Source: Buxus sempervirens (Eukaryota; Streptophyta; Magnoliopsida; Buxales; Buxaceae). Taken from it: a stretch of DNA of 64,000 nucleotides. This document shows positions 1 to 42,129 of this stretch, piece after piece. The stretch spans positions 40,613,439 through 40,677,438 of the forward strand of contig OX387191.1 of the NCBI GenBank assembly GCA_947561395.2, read 5' to 3'. A program made the position numbers and the translations under genes. How positions within the stretch are numbered: the first letter of the stretch is position 1; each line of letters begins with the position of its first letter. Under the pieces are notes generated by a model, which was given only the letters and a program-made list of their open reading frames with translations, searched no databases and had not been told where the DNA came from.

Positions 1-345
1 CCAAATAAGCCTTGGGTAACCCCATTAAGCACTCATTACCCACACAAAAAGGCTAGTCAAATAAGAATTCGGTACCCCCGAAATGAACAATGAAGCACCC
101 CCAAAATAACCTTAGGTACGCCCAGAAATAAACAGCTGTCAAATGAGCCATTACCACCCCTGAACAAGCCTTAGGTACCCACTGAATAAATGTGAGGTTC
201 ACCACAATTAAGCCTTAGGTACACACCATAAGAACTTGTAGGTACCCACCAAAAAACAGCCAATAATGCCCTAGGTACCCCCAATTAATCGTTAGGTATC
301 CCCAAAATAAGGCATAGGTACCCAAGAAATTTTCGTAGGTATCCC
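1..345. repeat. Degenerate GGTACC array, left end
   Basis: Roughly every 20-30 bp the sequence returns to a variant of AAGCCTTAGGTACCCCCAA, all in one orientation. The GGTACC core is itself palindromic. The same motif fills the gaps between all four genes up to 17290. No coding frame is credible here. The array is cut by the window edge, so its full length is unknown. Confidence 0.75.
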
Positions 346-349
346 AAAT

Positions 350-560
350 CGCCTGGCACCGATTAATCCTGGGATTTAATCGTGATGAAACAGAGACTTC
401 ATGTTCTCTGGAAAGTTAATCGGGAAGGTCGCGATTAATCTTGAGATTAATCGCGAGACCTAATCTCGACTGGGCGATTAGTCTTGGATGCTAATCGTGG
501 AAAATCCGTGTCTTAAAATTCTAATCGTGGATCTCACGATTAATCTCTGGGCTAATCGCG
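350..560. promoter_or_regulatory. ATTAATCG-rich core upstream of the transposase
   Basis: About nine variants of GATTAATCG occur in both orientations in 200 bp, making overlapping short inverted repeats. A GATGAAACAGAGAC motif lies at 384-405, some 480 bp before the transposase ATG. Similar cores lie upstream of the genes at 5884 and 16267. A promoter or transposase-binding role is inferred from position. The stretch 561-884 is AT-rich leader with a few GGTACC variants and no other recognisable feature. Confidence 0.45.
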
Positions 561-884
561 CGGATATGTTTTGTCTTTTTTTTGACTTTATTTTTTGCCA
601 GTATATTCTATCTTATTTTAACCAAACCTATGGGAATGAAGAAGGTCCAAAACTTATGTACCACCTTTGTACCCTTGGCGTACCGTAAAAATAATCCGTA
701 GGTACCATGTGTCTAGGTACTAAGAAATTATTCCGACGTACTCAAGTTTTGTAATAAGTCCTCAAAATACACCAACTTGGCACATGGTTGAAGAGAATGG
801 TTACCCTGTGATGTTCATGGGTAGTATATATTGTTATTAGTGTGATATTCTAAGTGGAATTTCTGTTTTATGTTGTAGGGACAA

Positions 885-3621
885 ATGGAGCAAGTCATTT
901 CTACAAGTGGAAGTGAGCAATTAAGTGGAGATGAGGTCAGTGATGATATAGCGGATATAAATACAGTGCCTAGAGTTGTAAGAGCACTAAGGTTCGATGA
1001 CGGCGAAGGGCATACTCAAAATTTTAGGCCATCCGTGGGAATGGAGTTCCCATCTACCGATGAAGCGTATAGATTTTACAATGCTTATGCAGCACAGAAG
1101 GGCTTCAGTATTCGAAAGAGTACGAGATGGAAAAGTCGGAAAGATGGTAAGGAGTTGTGTAGGAAGTTTTGTTGCTATAAAGAAGGGAAGAAGGGAACAG
1201 ACAAACGGGATAAAGATGTGAAGAACCCTAGAAAGGAAACACGTACGGGTTGTTTGGCACACATGAGTGTGAAAGCTCAAGACAATGGCATGTATTTTGT
1301 AGCAAGCTTTGAGGACGAGCATAATCATGAGGTTGTTACCCCAAGTAAGGCCCACATGCTACCTTCACAGAGGAAAGTTACAGAGGTGCAATTAGAAGAA
1401 ATTGTATTAGCAGAAAGCAGTGGCATACGACCAAAGCATGCTTTTGAGTTCATGGGTAGAGAAGCCGGCGGAAGAGAGAATTTGGGCTTCCTACCTATTG
1501 ACCATAAGAACCAGATGCGTGACAGACGGAGAGCAATGAAAGTAGGAGACGGATCAAGGTTATTAATTTATTTTGAAGGACAACTGATTGACGATCCGTC
1601 TTTCTTTTATGCTGTACAAGTTGATGAGAACAATGAAATAACAAACTTTTTCTGGGCTGATCGGAAGATGCAAGAAGACTACAATAATTTTGGAGATGTC
1701 GTTTGTTTTGATACAACTTATAGGACAAATGAAGCTCAAAGGCCATTTGCACCATTGGTTGGAGTCAACCATCACAGACGAATGGTAGTGTTCGGAGCCG
1801 CAATGCTTTATGATGAGACGAAGGCATCCTTTGTTTGGTTGTTTGAAACATTTATAAAGGCAATGAATGGGAAAAGGCCAGTTACCATCTTGACAGACCA
1901 AGATGCAGCTATGTCAGCTGCAATTGCTTTTGTTTTGCCGAACACCTATCATCGGTTATGTGTATGGCATTTGCATCAAAATTCATTGAAGCATCTCGGT
2001 CACGTATTCTAAACGAGAACCTCCTTTTCATCTGATTTCAATCGGTGTATATATGATTACGAGGAAGAGGTTGAGTTCTTGGAAGCGTGGGATGCAATGA
2101 TTCAAAAATACGATCTCCAAGACAATGAGTGGCTGAAGGGCATATTTAAGATAAAGGAGAAATGGGCCCTTGTATATGGAAGAACTACATTTTGTGCTGA
2201 CATGAAGAGCACCCAATTGAGTGAAAGCTTCAACAACCAGTTAAAGAAATACACGAAGTACAACATGGACGTCTCGTGTTTTTTCCAGCATTTTTCAAGG
2301 CTTTTGGATGATATCCATTACAAGGAACAGGAAGACAATTATAATATGAGCCAGCGTATTCCAAGAATGATGGCGGAAATCATCATATTAAAGCATGCAA
2401 GGGAGGTATACACACCGAAGCTGTTTGAGATTTTTCAATCGGAATATGCAAAAGCTCAGAATCTTGTTGTTAATGAGACTTCACATACTGAGACATCCAA
2501 AATCTATAAAGTTAGCTTATTTGATAATCCTCGAGGGCATGTTGTTACAGTTAACACTGAGGATGATATGTTGAAATGCAGTTGCCGTAAGTTTGAATTT
2601 GTTGGGATTTTGTGTAGCCATGCACTCAAAGTACTTGACATGTGAAATATTAAGAGGATCCCAAGTCAATACATATTAAAGCTGTGGACAAAGGATGCAA
2701 AGGGTTGCAGCCCAAGTTATAGTCGTATGTCAGATGAGGAAGTGGCAAAGCTGTCCATGGTTAAATGGTACAGAGAACTTTGCCATAATGCCGTTAAATT
2801 ATCAGCAATTGTTGCCGAAACTTTCGAGGCATATGAATGTGCTGCGAATGGGCTGGCCATTTTAATGACTAAAGTTGGAAATGTGTTGAAGAACAAGCCT
2901 TTGAGCACAGTGGATGGGAATGAAGGAGAGAATTTATCTGAAAATATTCAAATCACCGTTGCTGGACTGAAGAGGAAGCCGGGTCGAGGTCGTAGTGGAC
3001 GTCGACCAAAACATTTTTCAGAAAGGGCTCCGAAGAGGAAGAGGAACCATGACATACCAACTCAAACGGCAAATACAATTCAGAGTCAAACTCCACCACA
3101 AACAAAATATGCAAGTCAAAGCTCTGGATGGAGTGAGATAATGGTATAATACTTATCTCATACTAATGTATTTGTTTTATCATATCATGTTTATGGTTTT
3201 ATGGGGGATTTTCTGATTTTTTATGAATTTTATCTATTCCATAGGCCTCTCATCAGTTTCGAACAGATGGAGTGGTGACGGGAATGCAATCAAGAACATA
3301 TCCTATGGTTGAATATGCAATTTTGTCTCCATTCCAACAACCTGGTACTTACACATAGCTACTGCAGGTATATTTTCTAGAAGATCCTACTCTTCAATAC
3401 TTTGTGAAGAATTTCAATGCTTTGTAATGACATTCCATTAATGACAGGAATCAATGAGTCCAAACATATTCCAAGAATCCAACTCAAGTAATACTGTTGG
3501 CCAGAATCAATTTGGCTCCTGTTCAAACTCTACTGTAGGGAGATCTCCAAGAGTTTATAGTGGAGATGGGAGCTTATATCGTCAAGAAGGAGATTTAGGT
3601 CATTTCCCCAGAGATTTGTGA
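885..3621 (+). pseudogene. FAR1-related MULE transposase, near-intact pseudogene
   Basis: The frame 885-3149 encodes the standard FAR1/FRS layout: an N-terminal FAR1 DNA-binding domain (residues about 62-152, WRKY-GCM1-type Cys/His ligands ending EHNHE), the MULE DDE transposase domain (first Asp at 276 in VVCFDTTYR, second in the TILTDQDAA motif around 338-340), and a C-terminal SWIM zinc finger (CSC...CSHA, around 565-580). Two stops interrupt this one frame: TAA at 2010-2012, between the second and third catalytic blocks, and TGA at 2643-2645, just after SWIM. The reading frame is otherwise open and well conserved on both sides, so these look like recent nonsense changes. Beyond the exon 1 donor (ATG|GTATAA) are two likely small exons, 3245-3344 and 3448-3621; their join as I place it is one base out of phase. 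A host FRS regulator is the alternative, but the surrounding arrays favour a transposon gene. Confidence 0.85.
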
Positions 3622-4588
3622 TTCTTTTGTATATTGGTACGACAAAAAAGGGGGAGTGAATTGTGTATATTGAATGTGATGACAGTGTTAGTCTTGTAAT
3701 TATATTGTTTTTGTAGTGCAATGTAAGTGTTCATTTTTTCTAATTGTACAAAGATGTGTATATACCAAATGTATACTTCCAGTGGAATGAGAATCGTAAT
3801 TTTGAGTTAATTATTTAGTTCCGTTAATTGGTTAATATTTTCAGAGCTTCTTGCTGTTTCTCTTGCAAGTACATCCCAAATCAAAATAAGGTTCCCCCAT
3901 TAATAACACAGGTACATCCAAAATCAACCCTTAGGTACCCCCTATCTACCTTAGGCACCACCCATAATGGCTCCCAAAACCCCCAAATATATATATTTTG
4001 TACACCCCAACTGAAGAGTTAAGGTATCCCCTCAAAAAACAATAAGAACCCACTCATTTGGACCTTAGGTACCATAGATTAAGCTTTAGGTACCCACAAT
4101 CATGCTTTAGGTACCCCACAAATAAGCCCAAGGTACCCTCTGCACAAATAGCATGACGCGCGTACCTGGGATATCAACGCCCGAACGTTTCAGTACGAAT
4201 TGGTGATTGAGATTTCAACGCGCGGACGTTACCAACGCGCGAACGTTGCTTCGTAACGTCCGCGCGTTAGAAGGAAATTCTTCCTACTTCCTAACGTACC
4301 ACTTTGTTCCCTGTAATTATGCCCTTGTCCTCAAGGAATCCCCCCAATGATGACTTAGGTAGCCCCCAAATGAGGCCTACAGTACACCGCCAATCATTTT
4401 TTCAAAGAAGGAACTGATTCAGAGTATATTGATGGACAAAATTTTATCAAATGGAAACAACAGAGGATTATGATGCTGTAATTACGAATACTTTTACTAT
4501 GTGAAATGAGTACATTCTATACATCTGAGTTGCGTTGAGATAAATACATTTATATCCAAAACATAGAAGTACGTCTAAAATAAGCACA
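3622..4588. repeat. Convergent intergenic array with CGCGCGAACGTT core
   Basis: This gap separates the 3' ends of two convergent genes. GGTACC-type repeats in one orientation run at about 3880-4140. They are followed at 4150-4290 by a GC-rich core with several variants of AACGCGCGAACGTT and AACGTCCGCGCGTT, then by more degenerate GGTACC repeats to about 4400. The core differs from the ATTAATCG core found at 5' ends. A shared termination or boundary role is a guess from position. No gene is visible. Confidence 0.55.
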
Positions 4589-5884
4589 CTACGGTGCAAT
4601 GTCATCGTCATCAGACCCGGGAAGTGGTGGGAGGGATGGAGTTTTCTGACTGGAGCAAGTGAATAGATGAGTCACTATCTTCACGGCTTTCTTGACCAGC
4701 TTCTTTAGTCCACCAACTTCATGAGTGATAGATTCCTGAAACATTCCAAAATCACGTCGTAGACTGCCAAAATCCTCTCGAATCTCTCCAACGTCTTGGC
4801 TAAGCCTACGAAAGGCTTCTGACGACGGTTCACGTCGTGAATATGTCTTGAAAGAGCTGGGTTGAGAAGTGGGTGGACGAGGATGTGATGACGAAGGTTG
4901 TGCTGACTCTGCTTCCTCTCTTTGTTGTGGCTGCTGTTGGTGCGCCATTGATTCTCCGGATCTCTGAGCCGCGTGACAGTGGTGGTGCAAAGGTGCAAGT
5001 TGCATTTGATTTAGATTCATCTGTGAAAAATGTCTTGAAATAACCATGGAATCAGGAGGTCCACGTAAACCAAACCTCATCCCAATCCTGGTCATAAGAT
5101 AGGCAAACGGAAGGGCTCTGTGATCAGATGAATGGACAACTTGACATATATGTCTGCAAATGAATGTGGGCAGACAAAGGCGCGTTCGAGTAATGAGACG
5201 GTAGAGAAGGAAGACCATGGCCTTGGTCAGCTCGAACTTATTACCGCACCTAGGATAGACATTGAATGTGAAGATGAGATGGAGTATTCTATACGTAGGG
5301 AAGAGCTGATTAGCTTGAAGCACAGTTTTTTTCCATGGTGCATCAATCCCACACAGACATTGAGTGGCCTCAGCAAGTTCCTCTTGCGTTGGTGGGTTTA
5401 GGAAACGGACCTCTGATCTAGGTATACCCATTAAATCACTTATCAAGTCGGGTGTGACAGTATAGGTAGAGTCTGCCACTTTGATCTCAAATGCAGGCTC
5501 ACGAAAAGGAGGGTTGGACAAGTTACGGGATCCGGCGTAAAGTTGAGCAATAGTCGAGGAGTTGGCAGCATCCCCCCAATCTAGAATGCCGGACCAACCA
5601 ACAGCTTCCAGAATCTGTACAATACCATATGGTGCTAAACATGATTTAACAACCAGTTTCTCAACAATCAAGGGTTGCTGCCGAATTTGCTCGGCTTCAG
5701 AAGGTGCAGACAATGAATTATCAGAAGAATAAGGCTCCCTGTGGATGGTAGACTGAGAGGGATTGGGTTCCTCTGTCTCAGAAGGGCTGTAATGAGAGCC
5801 GGAAGATAATGAGGGACTTGTAGGTGCAGGAGTCCCATCCCTTCTCCTCTTATGGCGCATGTTAGAATTCTTTATTCGAGGCAT
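4589..5884 (-). CDS. Putative plant transposon protein, copy 1 (431 aa, open)
   Basis: The frame is open from ATG at 5884; an in-frame ATG at 5923 would add 13 hydrophobic residues, but the basic start MPRIKNSN resembles the other copy. The layout is a basic Ser/Pro-rich N-terminus (1-70), a globular domain (about 90-275) with the pattern ITPDLISDLMGIPRSE ... RLITRTRLCLPTFICR ... ALPFAYLMTRIG, a Gln/Pro/Ser linker (about 290-345), and a heptad-like C-terminal coiled coil (about 355-410) with an acidic tail. The central domain resembles the family called putative plant transposon protein (PF20167, recalled). Its biochemical role is unknown to me. It faces the dead transposase gene and has the same four-part layout as the gene at 9990. 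No stop or frameshift is seen. Confidence 0.7.
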   Translation of the reverse strand: MPRIKNSNMRHKRRRDGTPAPTSPSLSSGSHYSPSETEEPNPSQSTIHREPYSSDNSLSAPSEAEQIRQQPLIVEKLVVKSCLAPYGIVQILEAVGWSGILDWGDAANSSTIAQLYAGSRNLSNPPFREPAFEIKVADSTYTVTPDLISDLMGIPRSEVRFLNPPTQEELAEATQCLCGIDAPWKKTVLQANQLFPTYRILHLIFTFNVYPRCGNKFELTKAMVFLLYRLITRTRLCLPTFICRHICQVVHSSDHRALPFAYLMTRIGMRFGLRGPPDSMVISRHFSQMNLNQMQLAPLHHHCHAAQRSGESMAHQQQPQQREEAESAQPSSSHPRPPTSQPSSFKTYSRREPSSEAFRRLSQDVGEIREDFGSLRRDFGMFQESITHEVGGLKKLVKKAVKIVTHLFTCSSQKTPSLPPLPGSDDDDIAP

Positions 5885-5989
5885 GATTTTAAAAAATGAC
5901 AGAGAAAAAACAATGTTCGACACAACTCACAGTGGAAACTTGGTGGAGCCAAACCGTAAACCCCGTATATTTGGCCTTGAGTTGGAGAG

Positions 5990-6320
5990 TATATAGACTT
6001 GGAGAACCCTGGAAGAAACAGGAAGTGCGTATAAGATACCGTAGATTAATCGTGATTTGGAGGCGAGAGGCAGCAGGAGAACAGTGGAATAAGGGGACCC
6101 ATGCGTAGGAAACCCTAGATTAATCGTGAGTACGAAGTGGAGCGAAACCCTCTATTTATACACCCAAACATAAACCCTTGCTTGCGCGCATACAAATAAT
6201 ACATACGGCCGCAAGATTAGTCGTAAAAATCAGTAGGTTAATCGCATGCTTAATCGACATGTTCCGATTACGCATGGGACCTAACCCTGATGAAACAGCG
6301 ACTTGCTGTATGAAAATATT
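5990..6320. promoter_or_regulatory. ATTAATCG core upstream of copy 1
   Basis: GATTAATCGTGA variants occur at about 6045, 6118 and 6220-6260, upstream of the minus-strand gene starting at 5884. A GATGAAACAGCGAC motif lies at about 6288-6304, some 400 bp from the ATG, matching the motifs at 384 and 16835. Here it is on the opposite strand to the gene, unlike the other two. The role is inferred from position only. The next stretch, 6321-6459, is AT-rich with no feature. Confidence 0.4.
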
Positions 6321-6459
6321 ATATTATTATGATATAATAATGTGTCTACAAATCATGGGAAAGGGATTGAATGATGTGAGAGTTTATAACATTCATGTCA
6401 CGTTATGAATGTGACTCATGTAAGATATGTGCACGTATTTTTGAAGCTTCAATACATAC

Positions 6460-6801
6460 AAATCTGAGTACCCCCTAAATAAGGCCAAGCTACCCCAGAC
6501 TTAAGCCCAAGGTACTGTGCAAAGTTTTCCAAAACGTGACCCCACGATCCATGCACCAATAGCACAAAGTTGTAGCGAGGTAACCCAAGAAATACGACCA
6601 GGGCACCCCTCAAATAATTCTAAGGTACATCAGAAAATAAGCCAAAGGTGCCCCCAAATGATGCCTTACGATAGCCACAATTATGAATCCAGATACTGTA
6701 TGGGTACCCCACATAACACGTAGGTACCCCATAAATAATATGAAGGTATGCTATACGTAAGGCCAAGGTACCCCATATAAGGAATTACCAAGAAACGAAA
6801 A
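6460..6801. repeat. GGTACC array, left arm of an outer inverted repeat
   Basis: This is another one-orientation GGTACC array. The part at 6596-6801 is matched in reverse complement by 8366-8572, including unique segments such as the stretch around CACAATTATGAA. Identity looks like 80-90 percent by eye. The two arms therefore come from one duplicated and inverted block. Confidence 0.7.
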
Positions 6802-7085
6802 CCCGCGGACATTAAGGCCCAACGCGCGAACGTTTAAGCTATAAAAGAAGATACCGGGCGAGCGTTTAGAAGAACGTCCGCGCGTTGAAGTTCTCTAGGC
6901 AGAGCACGTACTGAGGTACCTTCGGTACAATGCGGTGTACACCAATCTTCCATGGGGAGTACCTGATTTTTACAGGGGGTACCCATATTTGATTTTATGA
7001 CTTATTTTTTTGGGGAGAACTAAAGGCTTGTATGGGGGGTACAATGGGCTGATCTGGGGGATACCCCACCGGCTTACAAGATGGT
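6802..7085. repeat. CGCGCGAACGTT core and reversed GGTACC array
   Basis: The block 6790-6895 has AACGCGCGAACGTT and AACGTCCGCGCGTT variants. After it the GGTACC motif continues in the opposite orientation (GGGGTACC type) to about 7085. This is the array-core-reversed-array pattern seen again at 7290-7640, 8145-8600, 11930-12730 and 16370-17290. Confidence 0.55.
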
Positions 7086-7089
7086 ACCC

Positions 7090-7290
7090 TGCCTTATATA
7101 TACAAATACGTGTTACATAACCCATAAGATGTACATACAACTACGTACGCGTGTGCACATGTAAAGGTACATGTGTGCATGTGTACATGAATAAATATGA
7201 GTACATATGCATGTACATGTGTACACGCGTACATGGCTCAGATACATAGTGTGCGTATGTAACCACACACACACACACAAATGAAAGATT
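7090..7290. repeat. ACATGTGTAC simple-sequence array 1
   Basis: This is alternating purine-pyrimidine sequence built on ACATGT, GTACAT and GTGTAC, ending in an AC run near 7265-7280. It is the shortest of three such arrays in this element. Long open frames over it reflect composition, not coding. Confidence 0.65.
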
Positions 7291-7439
7291 ACGGAACTCC
7301 CAAAAAAATAAAAACTTGTCCAAATAAATGGTAAAGGTACCCCTGTACCGCATGTAGAACATAGGTACCCCACAATAAAACATTCAGGTACACACCCTTA
7401 TATCGAAGGTAGCTCAGGAAACAATTATTAACAAACTTC

Positions 7440-8345
7440 AACGCGCGAACGGTCCTTTTGAAAGTGTGCGCGTCAGTTGTCTTCTTCAGGCGGAACGTTC
7501 GCGTGTTAGAGATCAACGTCCGCGCGTTGACGTCTGTTCGCCTTTCCTTCTATGGGGTACCTTCGCCTTAACAGTGGGGTATCTTCGTATTATATACTGG
7601 GGTACCTTAGTTTTAATTGGGGTACCTGTTGCCTACCCTAATATATGCGTCTGTACATGTACATACATGTGTACACATATATACAAGTAAGCCGGTACAC
7701 ATCAAAAAATGTACTTACATGTGTGCACACAAGTACACACATGTATACGCAGGTATACATGTGTGAGCGTGTGTACATGTACATGTACACAAGTATATGT
7801 TCTTGTACATGTACATGTACACAAATGTGTACACATGTACACACATGTCTACATCTGTTCAAATGCATGTAAATGTACATGTATGTGTACAAATGTACAC
7901 ATATGTACATGTGTGCACATATCGACATGTGTACTTGTGTACACATGTACACACATGTACATGTGTGCACATATACACATGTGTACATGTGTACACAGAT
8001 GACAATGTGCATGTGTACACATGTACACACATGTGTACACATATATACATGTACATGTGTACACACACATGTGCAGATGGAAAGGTTCATGTACTTGTAT
8101 ATATGTGTACACATGGATGTACATGTACAGACGCATATATTAGGGTAGGCAACAGGTACCCCAATTAAAACTAAGGTACCCCAGGATATAATACGAAGAT
8201 ACCCCACTGTTAAGGCGAAGGTACCCCGTAGAAGGAAAGGTGAACAGACGTCAACGCGCAGACGTTGATCTCTAACGCGCGAACGTTCCGCCTGAAGAAG
8301 ACAACTGACGCGCGCGCTTTTATAGCTTTAACGTGCGCGCGTTGA
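7440..8345. repeat. Long inverted repeat with array-filled loop
   Basis: The arm 7440-7687 is matched in reverse complement by 8092-8345 at about 90 percent by eye. Each arm holds a CGCGCGAACGTT core, a GGTACC array and the start of an ACATGT array, in mirror order. The loop (7688-8091) is an ACATGTGTACAC array, itself rich in palindromes. The whole block could extrude or snap back. Confidence 0.75.
7650..8145. repeat. ACATGTGTACAC simple-sequence array 2
   Basis: This is a nearly pure mixture of ACATGTGTACAC-type 10-14 bp words with no fixed period. It lacks stop codons in most frames on both strands, giving many overlapping Cys/Thr/His/Val/Tyr-rich frames that I do not accept as genes. Its right part (about 7960-8092) recurs inverted at about 8632-8765. 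Confidence 0.75.
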
Positions 8346-8365
8346 ACCTTAACGTCCGCGCATTA

Positions 8366-8600
8366 ACGTTTCTTAGTAATTCCTTATATTGGGTACCTTC
8401 GCCTTAAGTATGAGGTACCTTCATATTATTGTTTGGGTACCCACGTGTTATTTGGGGTACCCATACAGTACCTGGTTTCATAATTGTGGCTACCGTAAGT
8501 TATCATTTGGGGGCACCTCTGGCTTATTTGCTGATGTACCTTAGAATTATTTGAGGGGTGCCCTTGGTCTAAATTCTTTGGGTACCTGATCCATGTACAC
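8366..8600. repeat. Reversed GGTACC array, right arm of the outer inverted repeat
   Basis: GGTACC-type repeats in reversed orientation pair with 6596-6801. Upstream of it, 8250-8365 holds CGCGCGAACGTT-type core motifs. The arm ends where the third ACATGT array begins. Confidence 0.7.
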
Positions 8601-9085
8601 GTGTACACATGTACAGGTGCACTAACATGTGTACGTGAACCTTTCCATCTGCACATGTGTGTACATGTGTACATGTGTACACATGCACATTGTCATCTGT
8701 GTACACATGTACACATGTGTATATGTGCACACATGTGTATATGTGTACACATGTATATGTGCACACATGTGTATATGTGCACACATGTACATGTGTATAC
8801 ACTCATGTGCCCATGTGTGTACATGTGTACACATTTACATGTATGTACACAGGTACATGTGCATGTGTACACATGTACATGTATATATGTGTACACAAGT
8901 ACACATGTCGATATGTGTACACAAGTACATGTGTGTACATTTGTACACACACATGGATACATGTGTACACATGTACACACATGGGTACATGTGTACACAT
9001 ATATACATATACATGTGTACACATGTACACACATGTGTACAATCATGTGTACACACATATACAAATGTACATACATGTGTGCACA
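8600..9085. repeat. ACATGTGTACAC simple-sequence array 3
   Basis: This array has the same composition as the one at 7650-8145. Its beginning is the reverse complement of the end of that array, including the non-repeat words CTTTCCATCTGC and TTGTCATCTGT. Array 3 is thus an inverted copy of array 2, since diverged in word order. Confidence 0.75.
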
Positions 9086-9390
9086 ACATAAACCGAAGGT
9101 TCCCTTTAAAAAACCGAAGCGACCCTTTAAAAACCCGTTGGGACCCTTTAAAAAAGTTAAGAGGCCCTAGGTACGACACATATTTAATATCAACGCGCGC
9201 ACGTTCTCGTGAACGCTCGGACGTTCGTTTTGGGCTTGGGTACCCCCGCTTTTTTGCATGAGGTATCCCCACATTTTGCCAGAGGTACCCCAAACATAAA
9301 CCGAAGGTACCCTTTGAAAAATTCCCTATGTTTTTACACATATTTAATATCAACGCGCACACATGTTGGGCGCGTGCGTCCGGGCGTTTG
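9086..9390. repeat. 21-bp triplet repeat and short core motifs
   Basis: Three consecutive 21-bp units starting CCCTTTAAAAA lie at 9102-9122, 9123-9143 and 9144-9164. They are preceded by AAACCGAAGGTTCC, which recurs as AAACCGAAGGTACC at about 9298. Variants of ATATTTAATATCAACGCGC occur twice (about 9180 and 9340). This block lies 600-900 bp upstream of the gene at 9990 in place of the ATTAATCG core found at the other three genes. Confidence 0.55.
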
Positions 9391-9989
9391 CCTATATTTA
9401 CAAAGAAACAGGTCTGGCACGTTATTTCGTCCATGCGAATCAAACCATCCGAAGCGCTTCATCTTCATTTCGATAAAGTCTTCTCAGGGTGGGTACCACT
9501 TCATTCTCTTCTGGAAGAGTTCCAAAGCCTATATTTTTGGTTCGAAGGACGTACGAGATGCTTTACGAACTTTACTGCTTTGATTTTATATGTTACGATT
9601 AGGGTATTAATTTGTTCATTTAGGGTTTCCGAGCTATGTGTTTATTCTAATGTCTTGAAGAGGTACATTTTGCTTTATCTTGGTTGGAATGGTTTATATT
9701 ATCGGTTGCAATCAAGTTACTATTCACTTTTCCTATAAGCCTTTGACAAGTACACATCCCTATTGTTATCTCCCTAACGCGTGAATAGCGCCTGCACTTT
9801 TTCCTCAAGTGTTGGGTTTTTTTTATGTATATAGGGAGTGGGTTTTTTTCCACACAATTATTCATATTATTCACATTCTATATTATTTGCATTCGGTAGC
9901 ACTCATCTTTTCTGTGTCTAACATTATCGTTTGCTCTGTGTTGTTTTGTGCATATTTATTTTTCTTCCTCTCTTCTTCTGAACTCTTAG
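9391..9989. other. 5' flank of copy 2
   Basis: This is AT-rich, pyrimidine-biased sequence without arrays, leading to ATG at 9990. It contains TATA-like words and a GAAACAG at about 9406 that faintly recalls the GATGAAACAGAGAC motif of the other genes. I see no gene in it. Confidence 0.35.
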
Positions 9990-11717
9990 ATGGCCCCTAA
10001 GACCAGAGCCTCATCTTCTAAACCTAAGACATCCTCCAGGAAAGCCAATAAGAAACCCAGGACTGATTCATTTGATAATTCAATCTTCATCAATTGGAAG
10101 GCCAAGAAGATGTACGATAATAATATCAGCCACAGAAAAATCTTGCTTGAAAGAGGGGTTATTCTAGAAGACTTCCCCGAGTCTATTCGTGCAGCATTTA
10201 CCGAGAGAGGATGGGATAACCTCTTCACCAACTTCCTGCTCCCATCCCAACACCTAGTATATGAATTCTATTCAAACATCCACAACATCGCAGACAGTCC
10301 CGCATCCTTCGATACCTCTCTCAGAAGGCAGCCCATCCATGTAGATTCTGATACCATCGCTGGGGCCCTAGGTATTCCGAGAGTTGAAAATCCTGAATTC
10401 CCGTATGTTGATGCTCCCTTACCACATTTGCTCAATGAAGTGGCTGCTTGTTTACTGACCACTGAGAGGGAGGGGGACTATGAGGGCAAAGCTCTGGATT
10501 CCTCCAAGTTTACATTTGACACCTCATTCATATATAAAATCCAATGCTCTAACCTTGCGCCGGTGAGTCACAGATCAACTGTGCCTCCTATGAGAGCACT
10601 CTTGCTTTATGCATTGGTCAAGAGGCATTCAATTGATGTTCCCACCATCATGATTTCGTCTATGCTTGACTGTTTTCTCGATACCAAACATAGGTGTGGA
10701 CTTCCTCTCGGGTGTGCCATTGCAAAGATAGTCAAGATGCATCAAATTGACTTCCCCGAGTATGAGTTACTTGCTCCCCTTCCTCCTATCAGTACTGCAA
10801 CATATAATAAGTCCAAGGGGCAATACAACAAGTCTCATCCTGCTCCTCCACCCCCTCCCCCTGTTCCAGGGGTCCATGCTCCTGCTCCTCCATCTCCTCC
10901 CCCTACTGGTGAAGATGCTCCTGCTCCTTCATCTCCTCCCCCTGCGGGTGAAGATGCTCCTACTCTTCCATATCCTCCCTCCAATGTTTCTATAGGACAT
11001 GAGCATGATCTTCCTCTCTTGGAGTCTGCTACACATGATCAACCTGTGGAACCTGATATTCCATCCTCATCGGCGCTTGCTCCTGCTGCTGCTCCTATAG
11101 ACCAAACAACTTCTTCCCAATTTCCTCATGGACTCGCATCAATCCTTTCACAGGTTATGGGCATGCAATGTGAGTTGATGAATCAAACCAAGCTACTTCT
11201 TGAGAACCAGGAGACGATGAAGCAGCAGATAAAACAATTGTACGATGGTCAGCTTGCATACAAGCATGAAACTGATTGCCACGTTGCTAAGATGGAACAT
11301 CTTCTTCAGAACATAGAAGGTGACACCTACTCTACGAAAAAGGACATACGAGAACTGATTAAGCCGAAGTTTGCACAAATTGACACCAAGTTGAATTGGG
11401 TTAGGACAATAGTATGGAATGCTGATGACACACTAAAAGCAGTGCATGAGAAGCAGACCAGGCTGAACGAGATATATTTGGAGATGCAACAAGACTACAG
11501 CCGGGCCATGAAGCACTTTGAATTGGAAAATCAGGAGCTTCACAGGCTGAATAGGGATAGGAGAGAACAAAGGACAGTTGTCGATACAGCTTCTCAAGGT
11601 GTCGTTGGAGAGCAAATTCCTCCAAGTGATGCGGAGTACATTCGAGATGAACATTTGTTGCTTGAATCCCTTGAGCCTGCACACAAAGTTCCTGATCCAG
11701 CAGGGCCTACCCCATAG
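9990..11717 (+). CDS. Putative plant transposon protein, copy 2 (575 aa, open)
   Basis: This is a single uninterrupted frame. A basic N-terminus (MAPKTRASSS, 1-25) is followed by a globular domain (about 40-255) with LVYEFYSNI, IAGALGIPRVE, PPMRALLLYALVKRHSIDVP and GLPLGCAIAKIV. Then come a proline-rich stretch (about 285-330) with two to three degenerate units of the type APAPSSPPPAGED, and a long C-terminal coiled-coil region (about 385-545). The central domain shares its pattern with the gene at 4589-5884 and with the recalled family PF20167 (putative plant transposon protein). No catalytic motif is evident, and a DNA-binding or structural accessory role is only a guess. It converges on the Ulp1-like gene. 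An open frame of this length beside broken partners suggests recent activity or retained function. Confidence 0.75.
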   Translation: MAPKTRASSSKPKTSSRKANKKPRTDSFDNSIFINWKAKKMYDNNISHRKILLERGVILEDFPESIRAAFTERGWDNLFTNFLLPSQHLVYEFYSNIHNIADSPASFDTSLRRQPIHVDSDTIAGALGIPRVENPEFPYVDAPLPHLLNEVAACLLTTEREGDYEGKALDSSKFTFDTSFIYKIQCSNLAPVSHRSTVPPMRALLLYALVKRHSIDVPTIMISSMLDCFLDTKHRCGLPLGCAIAKIVKMHQIDFPEYELLAPLPPISTATYNKSKGQYNKSHPAPPPPPPVPGVHAPAPPSPPPTGEDAPAPSSPPPAGEDAPTLPYPPSNVSIGHEHDLPLLESATHDQPVEPDIPSSSALAPAAAPIDQTTSSQFPHGLASILSQVMGMQCELMNQTKLLLENQETMKQQIKQLYDGQLAYKHETDCHVAKMEHLLQNIEGDTYSTKKDIRELIKPKFAQIDTKLNWVRTIVWNADDTLKAVHEKQTRLNEIYLEMQQDYSRAMKHFELENQELHRLNRDRREQRTVVDTASQGVVGEQIPPSDAEYIRDEHLLLESLEPAHKVPDPAGPTP

Positions 11718-13042
11718 TCTTGAACCTCTTTTCATGTCTTTTGAGTATCGAATGCATCTAATTTGACCATCTTTTTTTACTTATGTGCCTGTAAAACGTT
11801 GCGATAAGTGCATGCAAAGCAAATATTGTTTGGTCTTAGCTTTCATTTGTCATATTCCTCTATCTCCCCAATACACACACATTGGGTCTAGCATGTCGTA
11901 ATGCGTGTACATGCAAAACAACCAGTCCAAGGTGCCACTTATATTAGCCTATGGTAATGAACTTCCACCTATAAGACTAAGGTATTATACGAAATGATTA
12001 AAATCTGCAACGAAGGCTGTGGGAAGACGGGGAATGCAAAAAAAGTCAGCTTATATTACGTATTAATCTTGAGATACCCTTCCAAACGTGCCTACGTATC
12101 CCCCAAATCAGCCCAGGGTACCCCCTACACGAGCCTTAATTTATCCACAAAAAATTCTCCAAATTAAGGGGAGAGTACCTCCAAGTAACACTTAGGTACC
12201 CCAAAGGTAAATTTAAGGTACCCCACAAGAAACCCGAAGGTACCCACACATACAAAATAGTGGGAGCACATTCAACGCGCGAATGTTTCCTGGTAACGCT
12301 CGCGCGTACTGTGCACTTTAAAACTGCAACGTGCGGGCGTTAATGATTAATGTCCGCGCGTTTTGTTCATTATCAATTCCTACTTGGGGGTACCTCCGGC
12401 TTACTTATGGGTTACCTTAATATTAATTTTGGGGGTACCTGGGTATTACTTAGGGGTACCCTTCCATTATTTCGCATCATACTTTTCGGTACCTCAATGT
12501 TTTATTGGGGGGGGGGGGTACTTTGGCTTATTTGCTGATGTAAATTAGGCTTATTTTGTGGGGGCCTTGGCCTTATTTCGGCGTGTACTCAACTCTTACT
12601 AGGTGACACCTAAGCTTATATGGGGTGGGGGTGGTACATTGTGCTAGTTAGGGGGTTACCTTACCCTTCACACGAACCATACCGTCATTTTGTTTTGGGG
12701 GGAGTACCTAATGTATAGTAACTTGTTTTAAAATTTGGCGTAATTTACGATCAATGAGTTTGACGAATCTGTGGCAGAACTTGAGCAATCAAAATAACCA
12801 AGCTTTTATTCAATGGATACAATGTCCTATGCACACAATACTTTACAAAAATCTGATCGTGAAACATCATAAAAAACTAAACATGCCATAAAAGTAAAAT
12901 CCAAGTGAATGCTTGATTCAGCTACAGCATTCATTACAGGAACATTCTTGTTCTCAAATAAATACATAAAGATTCCCCAAAAATTAAAATTTTAGTTTGA
13001 CGCATGTATAATATAAAAATGTTAATGCATCGAACTCTCCCC
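11718..13042. repeat. Convergent intergenic array with CGCGCG core
   Basis: After about 200 bp of 3' flank, GGTACC repeats run in one orientation (about 11930-12240), then a core at 12270-12365 (variants of AACGCGCGAATGTT and TAATGTCCGCGCGTT), then reversed repeats (about 12380-12730) including a run of ten G near 12508. The rest (12731-13042) is AT-rich 3' flank of the minus-strand gene. The arrangement mirrors the gap at 3622-4588. Confidence 0.6.
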
Positions 13043-16000
13043 CTAGGTAGAACTCTTCTTCACAATATCATCATTCACCGTGTTTTCTTCGTGGAGGATC
13101 ATCTCACTCACAATGCTTCTTCTGAAGCTCGGAATATCATTCTATTCAAAAATAACAAAACTATATTAATAATGTGATCATTTGGAGCTTTTGAAAACAC
13201 AACTGGATAGGTTAGGAGTTGTAGCGTACCTGCGTGAATCGAGGAGAAAGTTCTCCTCTCCAGTAAGCGGCGAAGTTCATGGTGAAGATTCCACAGTCAT
13301 GGCTACAAAAGATGCGATTACAATTTAATGCTATTAATATCATATCGTAGTAAGGATAGAAAAGAAAGTATAGGTGGAAAACGTACGGGTTGCCTTGCCG
13401 AAGAAGCTTAAGAGTCTCTGCTTTCGTCCTTGGAAATTTGCTTACTAAAACTTCCTTTTCCCATTGCCAGGTGCATATAATATCTAATCCTTTTAGCTGA
13501 AATATAAAAATTGATACTTAATAACAACATTAGTGACACAAGAAATTATTAGGCTGATCACTTACCACTCCAGTGAGAACTTCGTGGGTTCTCCACACCT
13601 TCATCGAGTTCAAAAAAAATACTTTCTTCTTATTCATGTCAACAACACATATGTACCAATGTTCTTGCTCCAATATGGGGAAAAACAACTGCATACAAAC
13701 ATATTTATTACCCCTACCCTATTAAAAGATCCCAGCAACAATGGTGAGTTAAGCTTACCATTTTGTAGTTGACCACATTCAGTAGGTACGATGGATCAAA
13801 TTGATCAGTAAGTCTGGCAAGGTCTCGGTTTTCTTCTACCTTGCAAAAAGTTTGAAAAGTTATAATATAAGTTCAACAGGATTATTATAGACATTGTCAA
13901 ATGATTTTGAAGAATGTCGTAGTAATTACCCCAATATCTGACATGAAGAAGTAGCATGGGCCTCCAACCTGCCGTTCTTGGAAATTCAGCATCTGCATGT
14001 AGCAATCCAAGATCTACATAGAAAAAAATAAAATCTAAGAATCCAAATATTTATGCGATCTGACAAGATACTTTGGTTGTTAGACTCCTACCTAGTTGGT
14101 AACCAATTTCTCAGGCTTCAAACACTCGAACTCATTGCGGGCAAAGAAGATATCGAAGAATCTCACCAAAACCTCGCTACATATATATCCCACAAAAGAA
14201 ACAATCAAACCATACGCAACAATTTACAAAGAAACAACGCATAAAACATAAATATGTGAAAGTACGTACTCTGGATTGAGGTCCTCACGGAATGCATAGT
14301 CGCAGACCGCGCATCCAACATCCACCAGAGTCCTACTAGAAGATGCCTCCACTAGTTTGCTTCCCTACAAGTTTATTAAAAATTCCAAAAAATGAATATA
14401 TGTCTGTCAACCTAATTCTAACTGAAAAACATAAAACAATTCCTTTAGAAAAACTGAGAACAAACATACCAATGGTTGTATGGCCGGATCTGCAGTGTTC
14501 AGATGCAGCAACAACCTAGCCTCCGCACGTTGATCATCGCCAGATGGCACCTGAAATATATTTCATGTAGGTCACACGATCATTACATCGACAATTTTGC
14601 TCTTCAATCTACTATAGTAAAGTTTTACATGAATGGTTGACATGCAATTAGACATCCAATTATATACTACTTACCGTTTGCGTTGGCCTCTCGGCATCGA
14701 GCGATTGCTTACTCTTTCTGGCCCTTTTCTTTTTCTCCCCGGTGATGGTTGTAAAAGGACTCCTTTTTGCCCTGCCGGGCACCTTCATTCGTTTCAATCT
14801 CGGAGCTTCAACGGGTTGAAATGGAACGATTGACCCTTCATATTCTCCCGCTATTGGATCCGGGATACATTCCGCCCTAAGTTCAATATCTTCCATCGGC
14901 GACACTGGGCAAGGGCCCTCCGGTGCAGAAGCAACGTTCATTGGAACCTCAAATGGTTCACGTGGACATTCAGGGGCAGAGTAGCTTCGGTAGTCACGAG
15001 CATATCCAACAAGCTCGAGAACCATCTCTCTTAATTCAGCTTGCCCTACTTCAAGATTGCTTATCATCAACTTCAATTTCTCCATCTAAACAAATCAAGC
15101 CACAAACATTTGCATTTCTATAAGATCTGGAACTTATAATGAATAATGACAAAAACCGAATTCCATTACCTCCTCCAAAGCCTTCAATCTCGGGGATTCG
15201 GCTACCTCACGCTGAAGGGCAGAAACTACCTTCGTTAGCTTCTTTATCGCTGCCCTCAATTTATCCTGCTAAAACACACAATCAAGTAAAATTTATGTCC
15301 ATGTACGTATAATGAATATTGATATTGAGTACCCCCTATTCGAAAATATAAATACAATATAATATAATATAATATACCTTCTTCCTCCCCTTTGATTTAT
15401 CGGACTCCGGAACATTTTCATATTCAATATGGTCTGGAGTTTTCATGTCATTTTCCTTTCCTTCTTTCTCCCTCTCCAACACATCCTCATCATTCCACAT
15501 GGTGATGAGAGGAGCTGTTGCATCCAAGCCTATCGCGGTCCTATCCATGCGTAAACATTCATAATAGAATATCTGCGATTGAGTAAACATTTCTTCCATT
15601 ACAATTTAAGCATACCAAATATATGAAATGTGTGTATAACAATAATTTACCTTTAGAAAAACCAAACAACCATTGACATATATTTGGTGCTTCTCCTTGT
15701 ATCGGCGGATTGCGGCAATGAGCCAATCAAGAACCAACTTCGACCAGTTGAGGGTACGGAGTCCCTCCATATCCATTACGAGATTTAAGAACTTTGTGCT
15801 GGCCTCCAGCTTAGCTTGAGGGCATAAAAATGAGCCCAATGCAAGCAATACAAAAAGCCTCAAAAAATCTTTATCCACCGTCTCCTTCTCTTGCAGTCTT
15901 CTCTCCAGCTCTCCTAAAGGTATCTTACCCTTATCATCACAATACATTTTCTTTAATTCTGTGAGGTCGTTTTCCACCTCATCGATTTCTATAGTCTCCC

Positions 16001-16267
16001 CGACAGAGGTCACCCCCAATATCCGCTGAACATTAGGAGGTGATATATCAAACGTCCTTCCACTTCAAGGCAACATTTATCGGGATCAAATGAAGCCAAT
16101 AAGGATGCAATGTTGCCCTTATAACAGTGTTTAATCGTCATATCAAGAAGGCTTCCCAGCCCAATTTCTCTAACAGCTAGCCTCTGGGACTCATTCAACC
16201 TTTCGATAATTTTTAGCAGTCGTTGAGGAGTACATCTATTGCGAACTCCTTCCCCGCTTGGTGTCAT
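13043..16267 (-). pseudogene. Ulp1-like cysteine protease of transposon type, 13 exons
   Basis: Minus-strand exons with GT-AG borders: 16267-15651, 15572-15378, 15268-15170, 15085-14675, 14550-14470, 14364-14270, 14176-14092 (or 14104), 14013-13930, 13839-13759, 13688-13566, 13496-13387, 13302-13230, 13141-13043; all phases fit. Exon 1 has the plant Ulp1-transposon N-terminal domain (LNWSKLVLDWLIAAI, NGCLVFLK). The middle (15268-14675) is coiled coil then Lys/Arg-rich. The C48 core spans the last exons: His in EQEHWYICVVD, Gln in RQGNP, Cys in HDCGIFTMNF. The usual catalytic Asp is Asn (FFLNSM). One base appears lost near 16056 in exon 1, and a TAG precedes the 14092 donor unless the 14104 donor is used. 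Length would be about 715 residues. The family removes SUMO-like tags; activity here is doubtful. Confidence 0.8.
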
Positions 16268-16369
16268 TTATCTACAAATAAATATACAAATTGATAAAAA
16301 AAAACTTTACAATGTGACTATTTACATGTGCCATCTATAAAATCAAAATGTAAATTGAAATACGCCTTA

Positions 16370-17290
16370 CGTACCCCATAAATATGCATTTTGTACCCCA
16401 CAAATAAGAATTGGGTACCCACAAATAGGCCCCCTAAATTGGTTTACCTACACCTACAAATTGGCTTACCAAAACCCAATTAAGCCTTAGGTACCCCCAA
16501 CAAAATAAGGCTTTCGTACCCCACAAATAAGCCTTGGGTATCCCCAAATATCCCCCCCCCCCCCCCCAAAATGTTCTAAGTACACCCCAAAAATGCCTTG
16601 GTACAAACAAGTGAGCCTTAGGTACTAGCCCCATAAGCCTTGGGTAACCCACCAATTATGAATTAATTGGGGAGGGGAGAGGAATCTAAGCCTTACTTCC
16701 CAAGATTTTCATCACGATTAAGTACAGGATTAATCGTGACCTGGCGATTAGGTGCGGCGATTAATTAGACGACTAATCGCGGATTTGCGATTAACTGTAA
16801 GCAGTGAAACATTGTCTCTGTTTCGTAGCGATTAGGTCTTAGGACAAATCGCCGAATCACGATTTCAGGAAGTACCTTAGCCTTATATTGGGGATACCTT
16901 GGGCTTATATTGTGGGTACTGTAGGTTTAGGGGGTACCTTAGGCTAATTTTGGTGAGTGGGTTTGGCTTACCATGGGGTACCTTAGGTTTATATGGGAGC
17001 TACCTTAGGCTTATATGCGGTACCTTGGGCTTAGAGTGGGGTACCTTAATCTGATTTGTGGGGCGTACTTATGGGTTATTTGACTGGGGGTACCTACGCT
17101 TTGTTTGGGGGTGCCTGTGAATTAAATGGGGATGTAGCTAATGCTTATTTGGAGGGTACCATAGGTTTATTTGTTGACTACGAAAATGTTTTTTGGAGAG
17201 CTCTTCGGACGTACCTAAAGCTTAACTCAGCAGGTACCCATCGTTATTTGGAGCAGTACCTTTGGCTTATTTCGCCTAGTACCCATGGCT
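16370..17290. repeat. Right-end array with ATTAATCG core
   Basis: GGTACC repeats in one orientation (16370-16650, with a long C run near 16550), a GATTAATCG core (16700-16860) with the CTCTGTTTCGTAGCGATTA motif (minus-strand form of the left-end motif), then reversed repeats to about 17290. The motif lies some 550 bp upstream of the Ulp1-like ATG and in the same orientation as that gene. Beyond 17290 the repeats stop, which I take as the right limit of the element. Confidence 0.55.
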
Positions 17291-18449
17291 CCTTATGTAT
17301 ACATTTGGTCATTATATTATAAAATTAAATTAGGGCTTACAGTCGTCTTTCAATGAGGCTGGTGGCTGTCGTGGTGGTCCCTCACTTACGAAGTTCTTGT
17401 GATGGTGGTGGTCCCTTTCTTTCGCTAAGTGGGCGCGCACGTTTGTAAGAAAGGGAAACCTCTGTGAAGCAAATGCAGTATGATCTTGTCCTTTTCGTAT
17501 GCGATGAGGATGACGAAGACGAAGAAGGTCCAGAAATGTCGGGTAAGGTGCGGACGTGGAGAGGATCCTAAATTAAATAAAATGTTTCGCACGTCTTCAT
17601 CAAGACGAGGAGATTGCCGAGGACAAAGCCGAGGAGAATTTTAATAGTTTTTTAAGCGTTTCGTTCAAAATTACGCTACTACCCTTCGCTTATTCTGGTC
17701 CGTTGGATTGCGCTTCATAGACGATGCGTTGCTTCACAGAGGATGCGCTTCACAGAGGATCCGAGCGCCACCTTTTCACCTTTGAAATCGCCTTTGATAC
17801 TCACACTCGCCGCTTCTTTCTCAAAACAACCAACAGCTACCATGACAACAAAACTGTGACAGCAAAGAATTGGAATATACGTACCATCACAACAAAACCA
17901 AATAAAAGTCCATTGTACCAGAAAAGAAGTTGATATTTTTCTCTTTTTTTTCCTTTGCGTTTTTTTTGGGTAAATTACAAAAGCTTGCATTTGAATTCGA
18001 TAATACTAGGGGAAGGCATAAATGATGCATATGGCAAAACAATAATGCAATTCTTTTATTCCTCAAAACATTTGAATATGCATTTGAAATTACTTGATTA
18101 GTTAATGGTAGTTATCAAGTTAATTAGATAAGTGTACGCAACTAATTATTAGATAAAAGTGAATAGAAGTAAAAGTGAAGGGCATTTTGTATAATAGTCA
18201 GTAATTACTAAGATAAATAAATGCAAACAACAAATTGGAGATAAAAATGAACATAAGTAAACTGCATTTTGGGCATCAAACGTCAGTTGAGAATCTCAAG
18301 GTTCTCTTCATACAATAGAATGACAAGATGCATTCATTCATATTTCAAAAATAACATCGAGCTCCCATTCACATATGATTGGTTATAATGTTTGCATTCG
18401 CTCTATCAAGTTATGATTAGTTGGCTATACATTAATAAATTTTATTAGT
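17291..18449. other. Non-coding flank right of the Mutator-like complex
   Basis: I see no gene or recognisable element here. The first 350 bp are relatively GC-rich with a GATGACGAAGACGAAGAA acidic-codon-like run near 17508; the rest is AT-rich. The short open frames lack any familiar motif. Confidence 0.5.
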
Positions 18450-19932: not shown

Positions 19933-19937
19933 GAAAT

Positions 19938-20571
19938 TGTTGTGGTGAAGACTCATCACTTGTGAACGATTTACCTAAAACTTTGAAGTTCAAACAAGCC
20001 AACAAAGCAATGGTAATACACCAATCACACAAACCAAAGTATAAACAAGCTACTAAATGTGTAAGAAAATGAAGTAAGAGCACAACCACAAGCAAGAGAC
20101 AAGATTTAACGTGGTTTGGCACTAAGGCCTACGTCCACGGGCAATCCGGTAAGATGAAAATCCATTATCAATGGAAAAGATTAAAAAAGAGAGGATTTTA
20201 CAGACTTACCTCTCTATAAGCTTGATACATGAACCATTCACCCAACCCCCACAACTTGCAACCTTCCAAAATGTGTTTGTAACCCCAAACAACTATGAAA
20301 GAACCCCAATACCTTGGAATAAATCTTGCAAGAGATGGAATAGTGAAAAACCCTTGTCTATTCTCTCTCTATTTCTCTCCCCTTCTTTCTTTTAACAAAA
20401 CCCTATATAGTATCTTATAAACCCACATGAGAAAAACCCCTCTTTCATGTACCACACTAATGGTATATAAACTTTATTGTTGCATTTACATGAATACCCT
20501 CATATAAAGTAACAAGTCCAAGAGAAGAAAAGACACAAAGAAGTGATTTTATATCACTTCTCAACAATCTC
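19938..20571 (-). repeat. Copia 3' LTR
   Basis: This pairs with 30834-31481. GAAAT adjoins its outer edge. It is the downstream LTR of a minus-strand element. Confidence 0.9.
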
Positions 20572-20614
20572 CACCTTGATAGAAAATCACCTCGCCTTTG
20601 CCAAATCCACCAAC

Positions 20615-25373: not shown

Positions 25374-25590
25374 ATACACGTTGCACGTTCCACCAAAATT
25401 CTATTCATGCGCTCTGCCACCCCATTTTATTGACGGGTTTTAACAACGGTATTATGCATCATTTATGCCTTAATTATTATCCAAAAATTTGGGGTCTTAC
25501 AATACACGTTGCACGTTCCACCAAAATTCTATTCATGCGCTCTGCCACCCCATTTTATTGACGGGTTTTAACAACGGTATTATGCATAAC
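25335..25590. repeat. 128-bp tandem duplication over an insertion junction
   Basis: Two near-identical units (period 128 bp, e.g. TTGGGGTCTTAC at 25361 and 25489) each contain the last part of the solo LTR and the first part of the adjoining copia sequence. The duplication therefore happened after the LTR had inserted. Confidence 0.9.
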
Positions 25591-41345: not shown

Positions 41346-41456
41346 TAGCTTGGCGACTCCACTGGGGACTGTTTCAACCCAATTGGAGTTTAGACTGAGT
41401 TGACTCATTAGGATGCACATGTGCAAACACGCACATTCACCTACACCTACACTCTT

Positions 41457-42120: not shown

Positions 42121-42129
42121 ATGCAGCAT

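Follow-up and report, generated by a model that had tools for sequence, protein, structure and literature searches.

The window, the whole 64,000-nucleotide stretch of Buxus sempervirens DNA that was analysed, contains one old, decayed copy of a large Mutator-like element (MULE) bearing terminal inverted repeats (TIRs). Its four genes almost certainly move together as one single element, and all five of its non-coding blocks, between and outside the genes, carry GGTACC sites about 22 nt apart. These arrays are probably bound by some protein that the element encodes. The features, in window coordinates, are as follows:

1 to 17768, plus strand: portion of the Mutator-like element that lies within the window; the left TIR starts at window -820, outside the window, and the right end is at 17768
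1 to 345, no strand: left non-coding motif array, forward units (part), continuing upstream beyond the window start
879 to 3149, plus strand: gene 1, FAR1, MULE and SWIM transposase, with stops at 2010-2012 and 2643-2645
3864 to 4386, no strand: between genes 1 and 2, a motif array whose centre has CG-rich motifs of the AACGCGCG type
4589 to 5884, minus strand: gene 2, PF20167 (Transposase_32) protein, open frame, profile match 1.7e-12
6463 to 9400, no strand: between the divergent genes 2 and 3, motif arrays in both directions together with palindromes of the AACGCGCG type and repeats rich in GTACATGTGTAC
9990 to 11717, plus strand: gene 3, encoding a further PF20167 protein of 575 aa, profile match 2.9e-21
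12091 to 12720, no strand: between genes 3 and 4, a forward array, a AACGCGCG-type centre and a reverse array
about 13020 to 16270, minus strand: gene 4, multi-exon, its N-terminal part resembling DUF1985/PMD and its C-terminal part Ulp1/C48; the window copy has a frameshift in exon 1
16353 to 17290, no strand: forward array, ATTAATCG-type centre and reverse array, about 480 bp inside the true right end
17552 to 17768, minus strand: right TIR, about 217 bp long and matching the left TIR at 81% identity

With its orientation set by the transposase, the whole element extends from about window -820 to 17768 (18,589 bp, 18.6 kb). The sequence-only reading had placed the ends at 1 and 17290 and had taken the motifs there as end marks. 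Both claims have to be corrected: the TIRs end further out, and the motifs are arrays that recur in every non-coding block. The expectation of TIRs and a target duplication beyond these two positions was borne out for the TIRs, whereas no duplication is visible in the flanks of the window copy. Perfect 9-bp target duplications (ACCATAAAG, ATTATTTGG, CAGAAACTT and GCAAGCATA, one per copy) enclose all four genes in four of the five other copies that were read at both ends; in the fifth, C8, none is visible. Copy C21 measures 20.6 kb and has TIRs that are 97.9% identical across 142 bp. A MULE-type transposase domain, TIRs and target duplications of about 9 bp (the latter in those four copies) are features of the MULE superfamily.

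The four genes lie on strands plus, minus, plus and minus, and profile matches on each confirm the mirror-symmetric layout that had been read from the letters. In order to compare this layout across the genome, the best 40 of the 135-336 candidates per gene were clustered within 25 kb, yielding 91 clusters, 56 of which hold two or more genes. Among these best matches, the order 1-2-3-4 and a consistent strand pattern are kept in 56 of 56 multi-gene clusters, as expected from the proposed four-gene unit. Copies with the genes in separate elements, or with duplications bounding one gene each, were looked for and not found among the copies read. That two or more neighbouring or nested elements lie side by side by chance is extremely improbable: many clusters among the matches listed do hold two genes only (22 as genes 1-2, 13 as genes 3-4), and two copies are without a visible duplication, but the lists comprise only the best 40 matches per gene, one apparent 1-2 copy (C10) holds genes 3 and 4 on direct reading, and separate elements predict no shared outer duplication, while four copies share one. 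We reject nested or adjacent elements because of these outer duplications and because no further copies of the terminal sequences were found inside the window element.

Gene 1 has the domain order of the Jittery/FAR1-type MULE group, with an N-terminal FAR1 (PF03101, 1.8e-26), a MULE (PF10551, 7.1e-28) and a C-terminal SWIM domain (PF04434, 9.8e-8). The window copy is dead, with two in-frame stops in this gene and a frameshift in exon 1 of gene 4; the 756-aa transposase is open in 14 of 19 other copies. Genes 2 and 3 score 48.1 and 76.6 bits against PF20167 (curated cut-off 45), and a proline-rich repeat in gene 3 differs in length among copies. PF20167 was rejected as a marker of the element because a first look gave 2050 candidates genome-wide, which are probably mostly Athila-type retrotransposons. 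Gene 4, spliced by eye and mostly from copy C21, matches Peptidase_C48 at 1.5e-9 (38.5 bits, cut-off 20.7), while its DUF1985 (2.3e-4, 21.6 bits against a Pfam cut-off of 35.1) and PMD (1.1e-5) matches are below cut-off. As in the KIU form, the C48 domain lies in the same gene as the DUF1985-like part. At what we take to be the position of the usual catalytic aspartate, the family of the window element (family 1) reads asparagine, so that the protease may be inactive. Sequence comparison with solved structures gave no meaningful match for gene 3, for the DUF1985 part of gene 4 or for the N-terminal 377 aa of gene 1.

Comparison of the window copy with another copy gave dN/dS values of 0.70, 0.75 and 1.25 for genes 1, 2 and 3. 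These within-family values are not low and do not demonstrate recent purifying selection. The gene 3 value comes from the comparison with C21, in which 55 changes are nonsynonymous and 13 synonymous; against C10 the window copy gave 1.54, and C21 against C10 gave 0.76. We make no claim of positive selection on gene 3, given this last value and the location of the window copy in a dead element. In gene 1, C21 and C1 differ by nine nonsynonymous and no synonymous changes.

The GGTACC sites are confined to non-coding DNA, with 54 in the 10.0 kb of non-coding and none in the 8.5 kb of coding element DNA; when the non-coding bases were shuffled 200 times, the count averaged 1.4 and never exceeded 5. 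The block between genes 2 and 3 (5882-9989), which has another length in C21, holds 23 of them. Successive sites are 20-23 nt apart in 38 cases, compared with 6.3 on average (at most 15) when the sites are jittered by ±15 nt, and this spacing is kept while the letters between family-1 sites are degenerate. Genome-wide, the family-1 motif pattern has 193 matches and its reversed control none. Near a listed gene match (best 40 per gene) lie 17 of the 64 listed motif loci.

Related families carry arrays with other units. A neighbouring, full-length element of 12.5 kb has the same gene types, with a single PF20167 gene seen rather than a pair (86.7 bits, cut-off 45) and with DUF1985 (7.4e-5) and PMD (1.1e-7) matches below cut-off. 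Its array has a period of 22 and 20 copies of a unit that differs from that of the window element and has 920 matches (control 0). A third unit has 1803 matches (control 0). Among the 33 loci drawn from 100 listed matches of this third unit, 22 have an Ulp1 match within 5 kb (random mean 0.05), and in all 22 the match and the unit are on opposite strands. Arrays beside Ulp1 genes number from about 4.6 to 42 copies, and their orientation relative to the gene is fixed in 27 of 27 loci having one. In every family read the period is about 22 nt, while the letters of the unit change between families. Clear TIRs are also present in related elements, and each of the long TIRs of a non-autonomous Pack-MULE, in which no element gene was seen, contains about 35-41 units.

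VANC proteins are reported to carry DUF1985 and to bind motif arrays in non-coding DNA (PMC5735166). By analogy, we posit that the element may itself encode a sequence-specific DNA-binding protein that docks along the arrays; as in VANC/KIU, the DUF1985/Ulp1 protein is the most likely candidate. Once bound, it would shield promoters and ends from host methylation and keep them open, and the transposase could then be expressed and act. A step of 22 nt is about two turns of the helix, so that neighbouring protein copies would lie on the same side of the DNA, and with units that change between families each protein would read the unit of its own family only. The PF20167 proteins would be accessory factors. 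We consider it an even question whether the arrays are such a VANC/KIU-like anti-silencing target platform in FAR1-type, TIR-bearing MULEs, where both binding and anti-silencing are inferred. Weighing against this reading are the DUF1985 match below cut-off, the clear TIRs, the small share of listed family-1 motif loci that lie near a listed gene match, the asparagine in the C48 part and the dN/dS values.

The arrays might instead be binding sites of the transposase, with the FAR1 domain of gene 1 docking on the units to build a transposition complex and the other three genes as passengers or helpers. Relatives A and U differ in array unit and, in step, in the transposase (53% aa identity in the FAR1 region); they are more alike in the PF20167 protein (91%) and in the DUF1985 part (79%). 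Furthermore, a listed U-type transposase lies within 8 kb of none of 33 unit A loci and of 4 of 15 unit B loci. Transposase binding fits these two observations at least equally well. The arrays within the TIRs of the Pack-MULE, which needs sites in cis only, point in the same direction, as do the subterminal tandem repeats of 9-15 bp described for 10 of 12 long-TIR mosquito MULE families (PMC5225508). Against it, the 20-copy array of the neighbouring element is about 6 kb from either end, and the window element has arrays even between genes, where docking would be unneeded. On balance we regard transposase docking as less likely than the platform. Functionless tandem repeats, spread through non-coding DNA by slippage and unequal exchange, are less probable still. 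Tandem repeats do turn over fast, and 81.6 kb of control DNA held three background arrays of period 22-23 with 3.2-4.2 copies, but neutral spread does not sit well with a period that holds at 22 through changes of unit, with the copy numbers and fixed orientation beside Ulp1 genes, with family-1 spacing that outlasts the letters between sites, or with coding DNA free of GGTACC.

The platform reading draws on VANDAL/VANC and the Ulp1-bearing KIU of Arabidopsis and other eudicots, described as MULEs that carry several genes, among them a transposase and a DUF1985-type protein (which in KIU also has Ulp1), along with short, family-specific motif arrays in non-coding regions (PMC5735166, PMC10398659, PMC13317346). 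Unlike VANDAL, the element described here has a FAR1-type transposase, two PF20167 genes and clear TIRs, and the array period is about 22 nt in every family read. VANDAL elements are without good TIRs, and some VANDAL-group relatives are reported to possess them (PMC6446971). Jittery/FAR1-type MULEs are described with the domain order of gene 1 and with TIRs, and ULP sequences are reported in some grapevine Jittery-like families (PMC2528002). For the plant Jittery group, a single ORF and TIRs of 39-292 bp are described (PMC6446971), in contrast to four genes, 18.6-20.6 kb and long arrays here. Abermu of barley is likewise large (8.2 kb, three ORFs, TIRs of 138-145 bp, 9-bp duplications), but is reported to have a MURA-type transposase and other ORFs of no known type; the words tandem, Ulp and FAR1 are absent from the main text of that paper (PMC9168764). 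Muta1 and other mosquito MULEs also have tandem repeats in the terminal region, reportedly retained by non-autonomous derivatives, yet these are short repeats in short elements (Muta1, 3.2 kb), whereas arrays of about 22 nt lie between genes here (PMC5225508).

PF20167, the domain of genes 2 and 3, is reported to be related to ORF1 of Athila LTR retrotransposons (PF03078/PF20167; PMC11728184). Unlike in Athila, the carrier here is a DNA transposon that also encodes a transposase and Ulp1. Since the gene set includes this family, elements of class I and of class II would draw on one accessory module. In its widest form, which we put forward tentatively and at somewhat less than even odds, our proposal is that VANC-kind target arrays with a step of about 22 nt occur in FAR1-type TIR-bearing MULEs with a shared gene set and family-specific units, that the arrays in Pack-MULE TIRs exploit the binding protein in trans, and that the accessory module serves both classes. 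Should a protein encoded by the element read the arrays, the source genome would contain several matched protein-site pairs with young copies. Protein recognition and change of target could then be tested directly outside Arabidopsis and in another transposase lineage, and the fixed spacing, beyond the motif alone, would belong to the code. The PF20167 link, if true, would join accessory proteins of Athila with those of DNA transposons.

In the non-coding DNA of the window element, CACGCGC, which we take to be a FAR1/FHY3-type site, was not enriched (one match, shuffle mean 0.4). The shorter core ACGCGC occurs there 20 times, compared with a shuffle mean of 2.3.

The sequence-only reading took the four genes at the left end of the window for a single Mutator-like element, which other copies in the genome should repeat in the same order between terminal inverted repeats (TIRs) and target duplications. 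According to our analysis this reading stands, and the finding is real. In the source genome (676.5 Mb; window at G000:C14:40613439-40677438), the window copy carries the following genes, in window positions:

Gene 1, 879-3149, plus strand, with FAR1, MULE and SWIM domains
Gene 2, 4589-5884, minus strand, a PF20167 protein
Gene 3, 9990-11717, plus strand, a PF20167 protein
Gene 4, about 13020-16268, minus strand, multi-exon

The genome was searched with each gene, and the best 40 of 336, 135, 136 and 185 candidates (genes 1 to 4) were scored, with identities mostly of 93-98%. Joined within 25 kb, these best 40 matches per gene formed 91 clusters, 56 of them with at least two genes, and in all 56 the order was 1-2-3-4 with consistent strands. 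Because only the best 40 matches per gene entered, a gene absent from a cluster means little; for the C10 copy (copies are named by contig), genes 1 and 2 alone are among the matches listed, and direct reading shows genes 3 and 4 too. At 15 of 20 gene-1 loci we located the left terminus, which mostly reads GCGCGCGGATCC or GCGCTCGGATCC and then TCTGTGAAGC; one of the remaining five is the window copy cut short (stretch L009). Both ends were examined in five other copies (C21, C14, C4, C12 and C8), four of which are bounded by perfect 9-bp target duplications:

C21 copy, ACCATAAAG, perfect 9 bp
C14 copy, ATTATTTGG, perfect 9 bp
C4 copy, CAGAAACTT, perfect 9 bp
C12 copy, GCAAGCATA, perfect 9 bp

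No target duplication was found at the C8 copy or at the window copy. The C21 copy is 20,594 bp long with a TIR stretch of 142 bp (97.9% identity); the window copy measures 18,589 bp, and its TIR, about 217 bp long, has 81% identity. About 40 kb lie between the target duplications of the C4 copy, which therefore presumably contains inserts. A second terminal sequence was looked for inside the window element and not found.

The window copy itself is dead, since gene 1 has two in-frame stops and the first exon of gene 4 a frameshift. The 756-aa transposase frame is open in 14 of 19 other copies, and one more has 750 aa. The gene 4 product, spliced by eye mostly on the C21 copy, matches Peptidase_C48 (1.5e-9) as well as PMD (1.1e-5) and DUF1985 (2.3e-4), the latter two both under the cut-off. 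Within its C48 part (window positions about 13560-13690), both the window copy and the C21 copy read FLNS, and the neighbouring family has VLDS, with Asp, at the matching position; we take the Asn of FLNS to occupy the place of the usual catalytic Asp.

The inverted motifs once read as element ends proved to be arrays internal to the element, and these arrays, which the sequence-only reading saw only as end motifs, are a more interesting point than the four-gene unit. GGTACC occurs in all five non-coding blocks (9, 5, 23, 8 and 9 times), giving 54 in 10.0 kb of non-coding against 0 in 8.5 kb of coding element DNA; 200 base shuffles averaged 1.4 and never exceeded 5, and the 46 kb of window outside the element hold 6. 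Among the 103 GTAC-like sites in non-coding element DNA (7 more are coding), 38 successive spacings measure 20-23 nt; the corresponding figure is 3.4 (maximum 12) for randomly placed sites and 6.3 (maximum 15) when every site is jittered by as much as 15 nt. A 19-nt unit form has 193 genome matches at no more than one mismatch; with the pattern reversed there are 0. Of these, 100 are listed, and 18 of the 100 are at most 25 kb from a gene match on the lists; counted by motif locus the figure is 17 of 64 (random mean 0.5, maximum 3), so that many motif loci have no assigned gene, partly through the restriction to the best 40 matches per gene. The centres of the inner arrays (window 4150-12365) hold CG-rich AACGCGCG-type palindromes, ATTAATCG motifs (361-560 and 16670-16860) stand at the outer arrays, and ACGCGC occurs 20 times in non-coding DNA (shuffle mean 2.3). 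Between genes 2 and 3, window 7640-9080 holds GTACATGTGTACAC-rich repeats; the C21 copy is nearly 3 kb longer there between matching flanking parts. At C12:18841800-18845300 (L045), oppositely oriented GGTACC-type arrays stand about 1.7 kb apart; their similarity to the window element at its right end is 68%, and this is perhaps a diverged non-autonomous relative.

Arrays also occur in a related neighbour:

Element U, C14:40593439-40612617 (L043 and L029), reverse orientation, about 12.5 kb, directly upstream of the window

It carries a FAR1 transposase in two frames, one PF20167 gene and a DUF1985/Ulp1 gene, has TIRs of 113 bp (83% identity), and is flanked by the 10-bp repeat CTTCTAAGGC (by eye). 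A unit of period 22, GACTTGTACCTAGGCATGGTTT, is present in 20 copies between its PF20167 and Ulp1 genes. An Ulp1 match lies within 15 kb of the U-type transposase at 33 of 40 scored copies, always downstream, on the opposite strand and 4.7-10.7 kb away. A period-22 array was present at 7 of 11 Ulp1 loci examined, with units of two forms (A and B) and mixtures; since these seven look by eye like close relatives, they are not seven independent cases. The first form (B) has 920 genome matches and the second (A) 1803, with 0 for each control. With 100 matches listed per form, an Ulp1 match lies within 5 kb at 22 of 33 form A loci (random mean 0.05) and 5 of 15 form B loci (0.04), and the Ulp1 gene is on the strand opposite to the unit at all 22 and all 5. 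Short period-22 arrays do occur by chance, as 81.6 kb of control DNA (including a few hundred bases of element ends) held three of period 22-23 with 3.2-4.2 copies.

Six array loci without a nearby Ulp1 match are inverted pairs, two of form A and four of form B (100 matches listed per form), of which one was examined:

Non-autonomous Pack-MULE, C3:20566623-20570763 (L046, L044 and L047), 4.1 kb, 1.5-kb TIRs at 95% identity

Its outer ends match the U TIR at 74-79% over 111-137 bp, the inner TIR parts hold about 35-41 array units per side, and the flanks have 8 of 9 bp in common (by eye). Between the arms lies an apparent captured host gene fragment, which from the translation, by eye, we take to be C2-domain. 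Because the array here travels with the ends and the genes are gone, a cis function of the array is suggested.

As to which protein might read the array, U was compared with a relative, A (C3:17.53 Mb; transposase frame open, 847 aa). The PF20167 proteins are 91% identical, the DUF1985 part 79% and the next exon 78%; for the transposases the figures are 62% in one part, 43% in another and 53% in the FAR1 region. Of the 22 positions in the array consensus, 6 are different between the two, none of them in the common GACTTGTA part. A U-type transposase from the list (best 40 copies) is no more than 8 kb away at 0 of 33 form A loci and at 4 of 15 form B loci. Given these identities and locus counts, the array varies more in step with the transposase than with the PF20167 or DUF1985 proteins. 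We nevertheless put the DUF1985/Ulp1 protein first as candidate reader, with about an even chance of being right, because the array has a central position in U, because arrays fill every spacer between genes of the window element, and because DUF1985 proteins are known VANDAL readers (PMC5735166). VANC, the DUF1985 protein that VANDAL elements carry, is described as binding arrays of short motifs in non-coding DNA and taking methylation away (PMC5735166, PMC10398659). Further sources name the Ulp1 domain of some VANDAL elements KIU (PMC13317346), report ULP in grapevine Jittery-like MULEs (PMC2528002), give one ORF for the plant Jittery group in a survey (PMC6446971) and make PF20167 kin to Athila ORF1 (PMC11728184). 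The literature search brought to light no FAR1-type MULE that combines PF20167 genes with arrays of this kind, which is weak evidence of absence with subscription papers mostly out of reach.

Elsewhere in the window, a tandem array of period 28 nt (41347-42177) stands beside a segment that recurs at 62414-63671 (84-93% identity), and 39439-41333 and 51832-53564 form a direct-orientation repeat (93-97%). Direct repeats at 19934-20566 and 30830-31481 (87-91%, about 10.9 kb apart) enclose a polyprotein-like frame (25558-26376, minus strand, by eye), and 19934-31481 looks like an old LTR retrotransposon.
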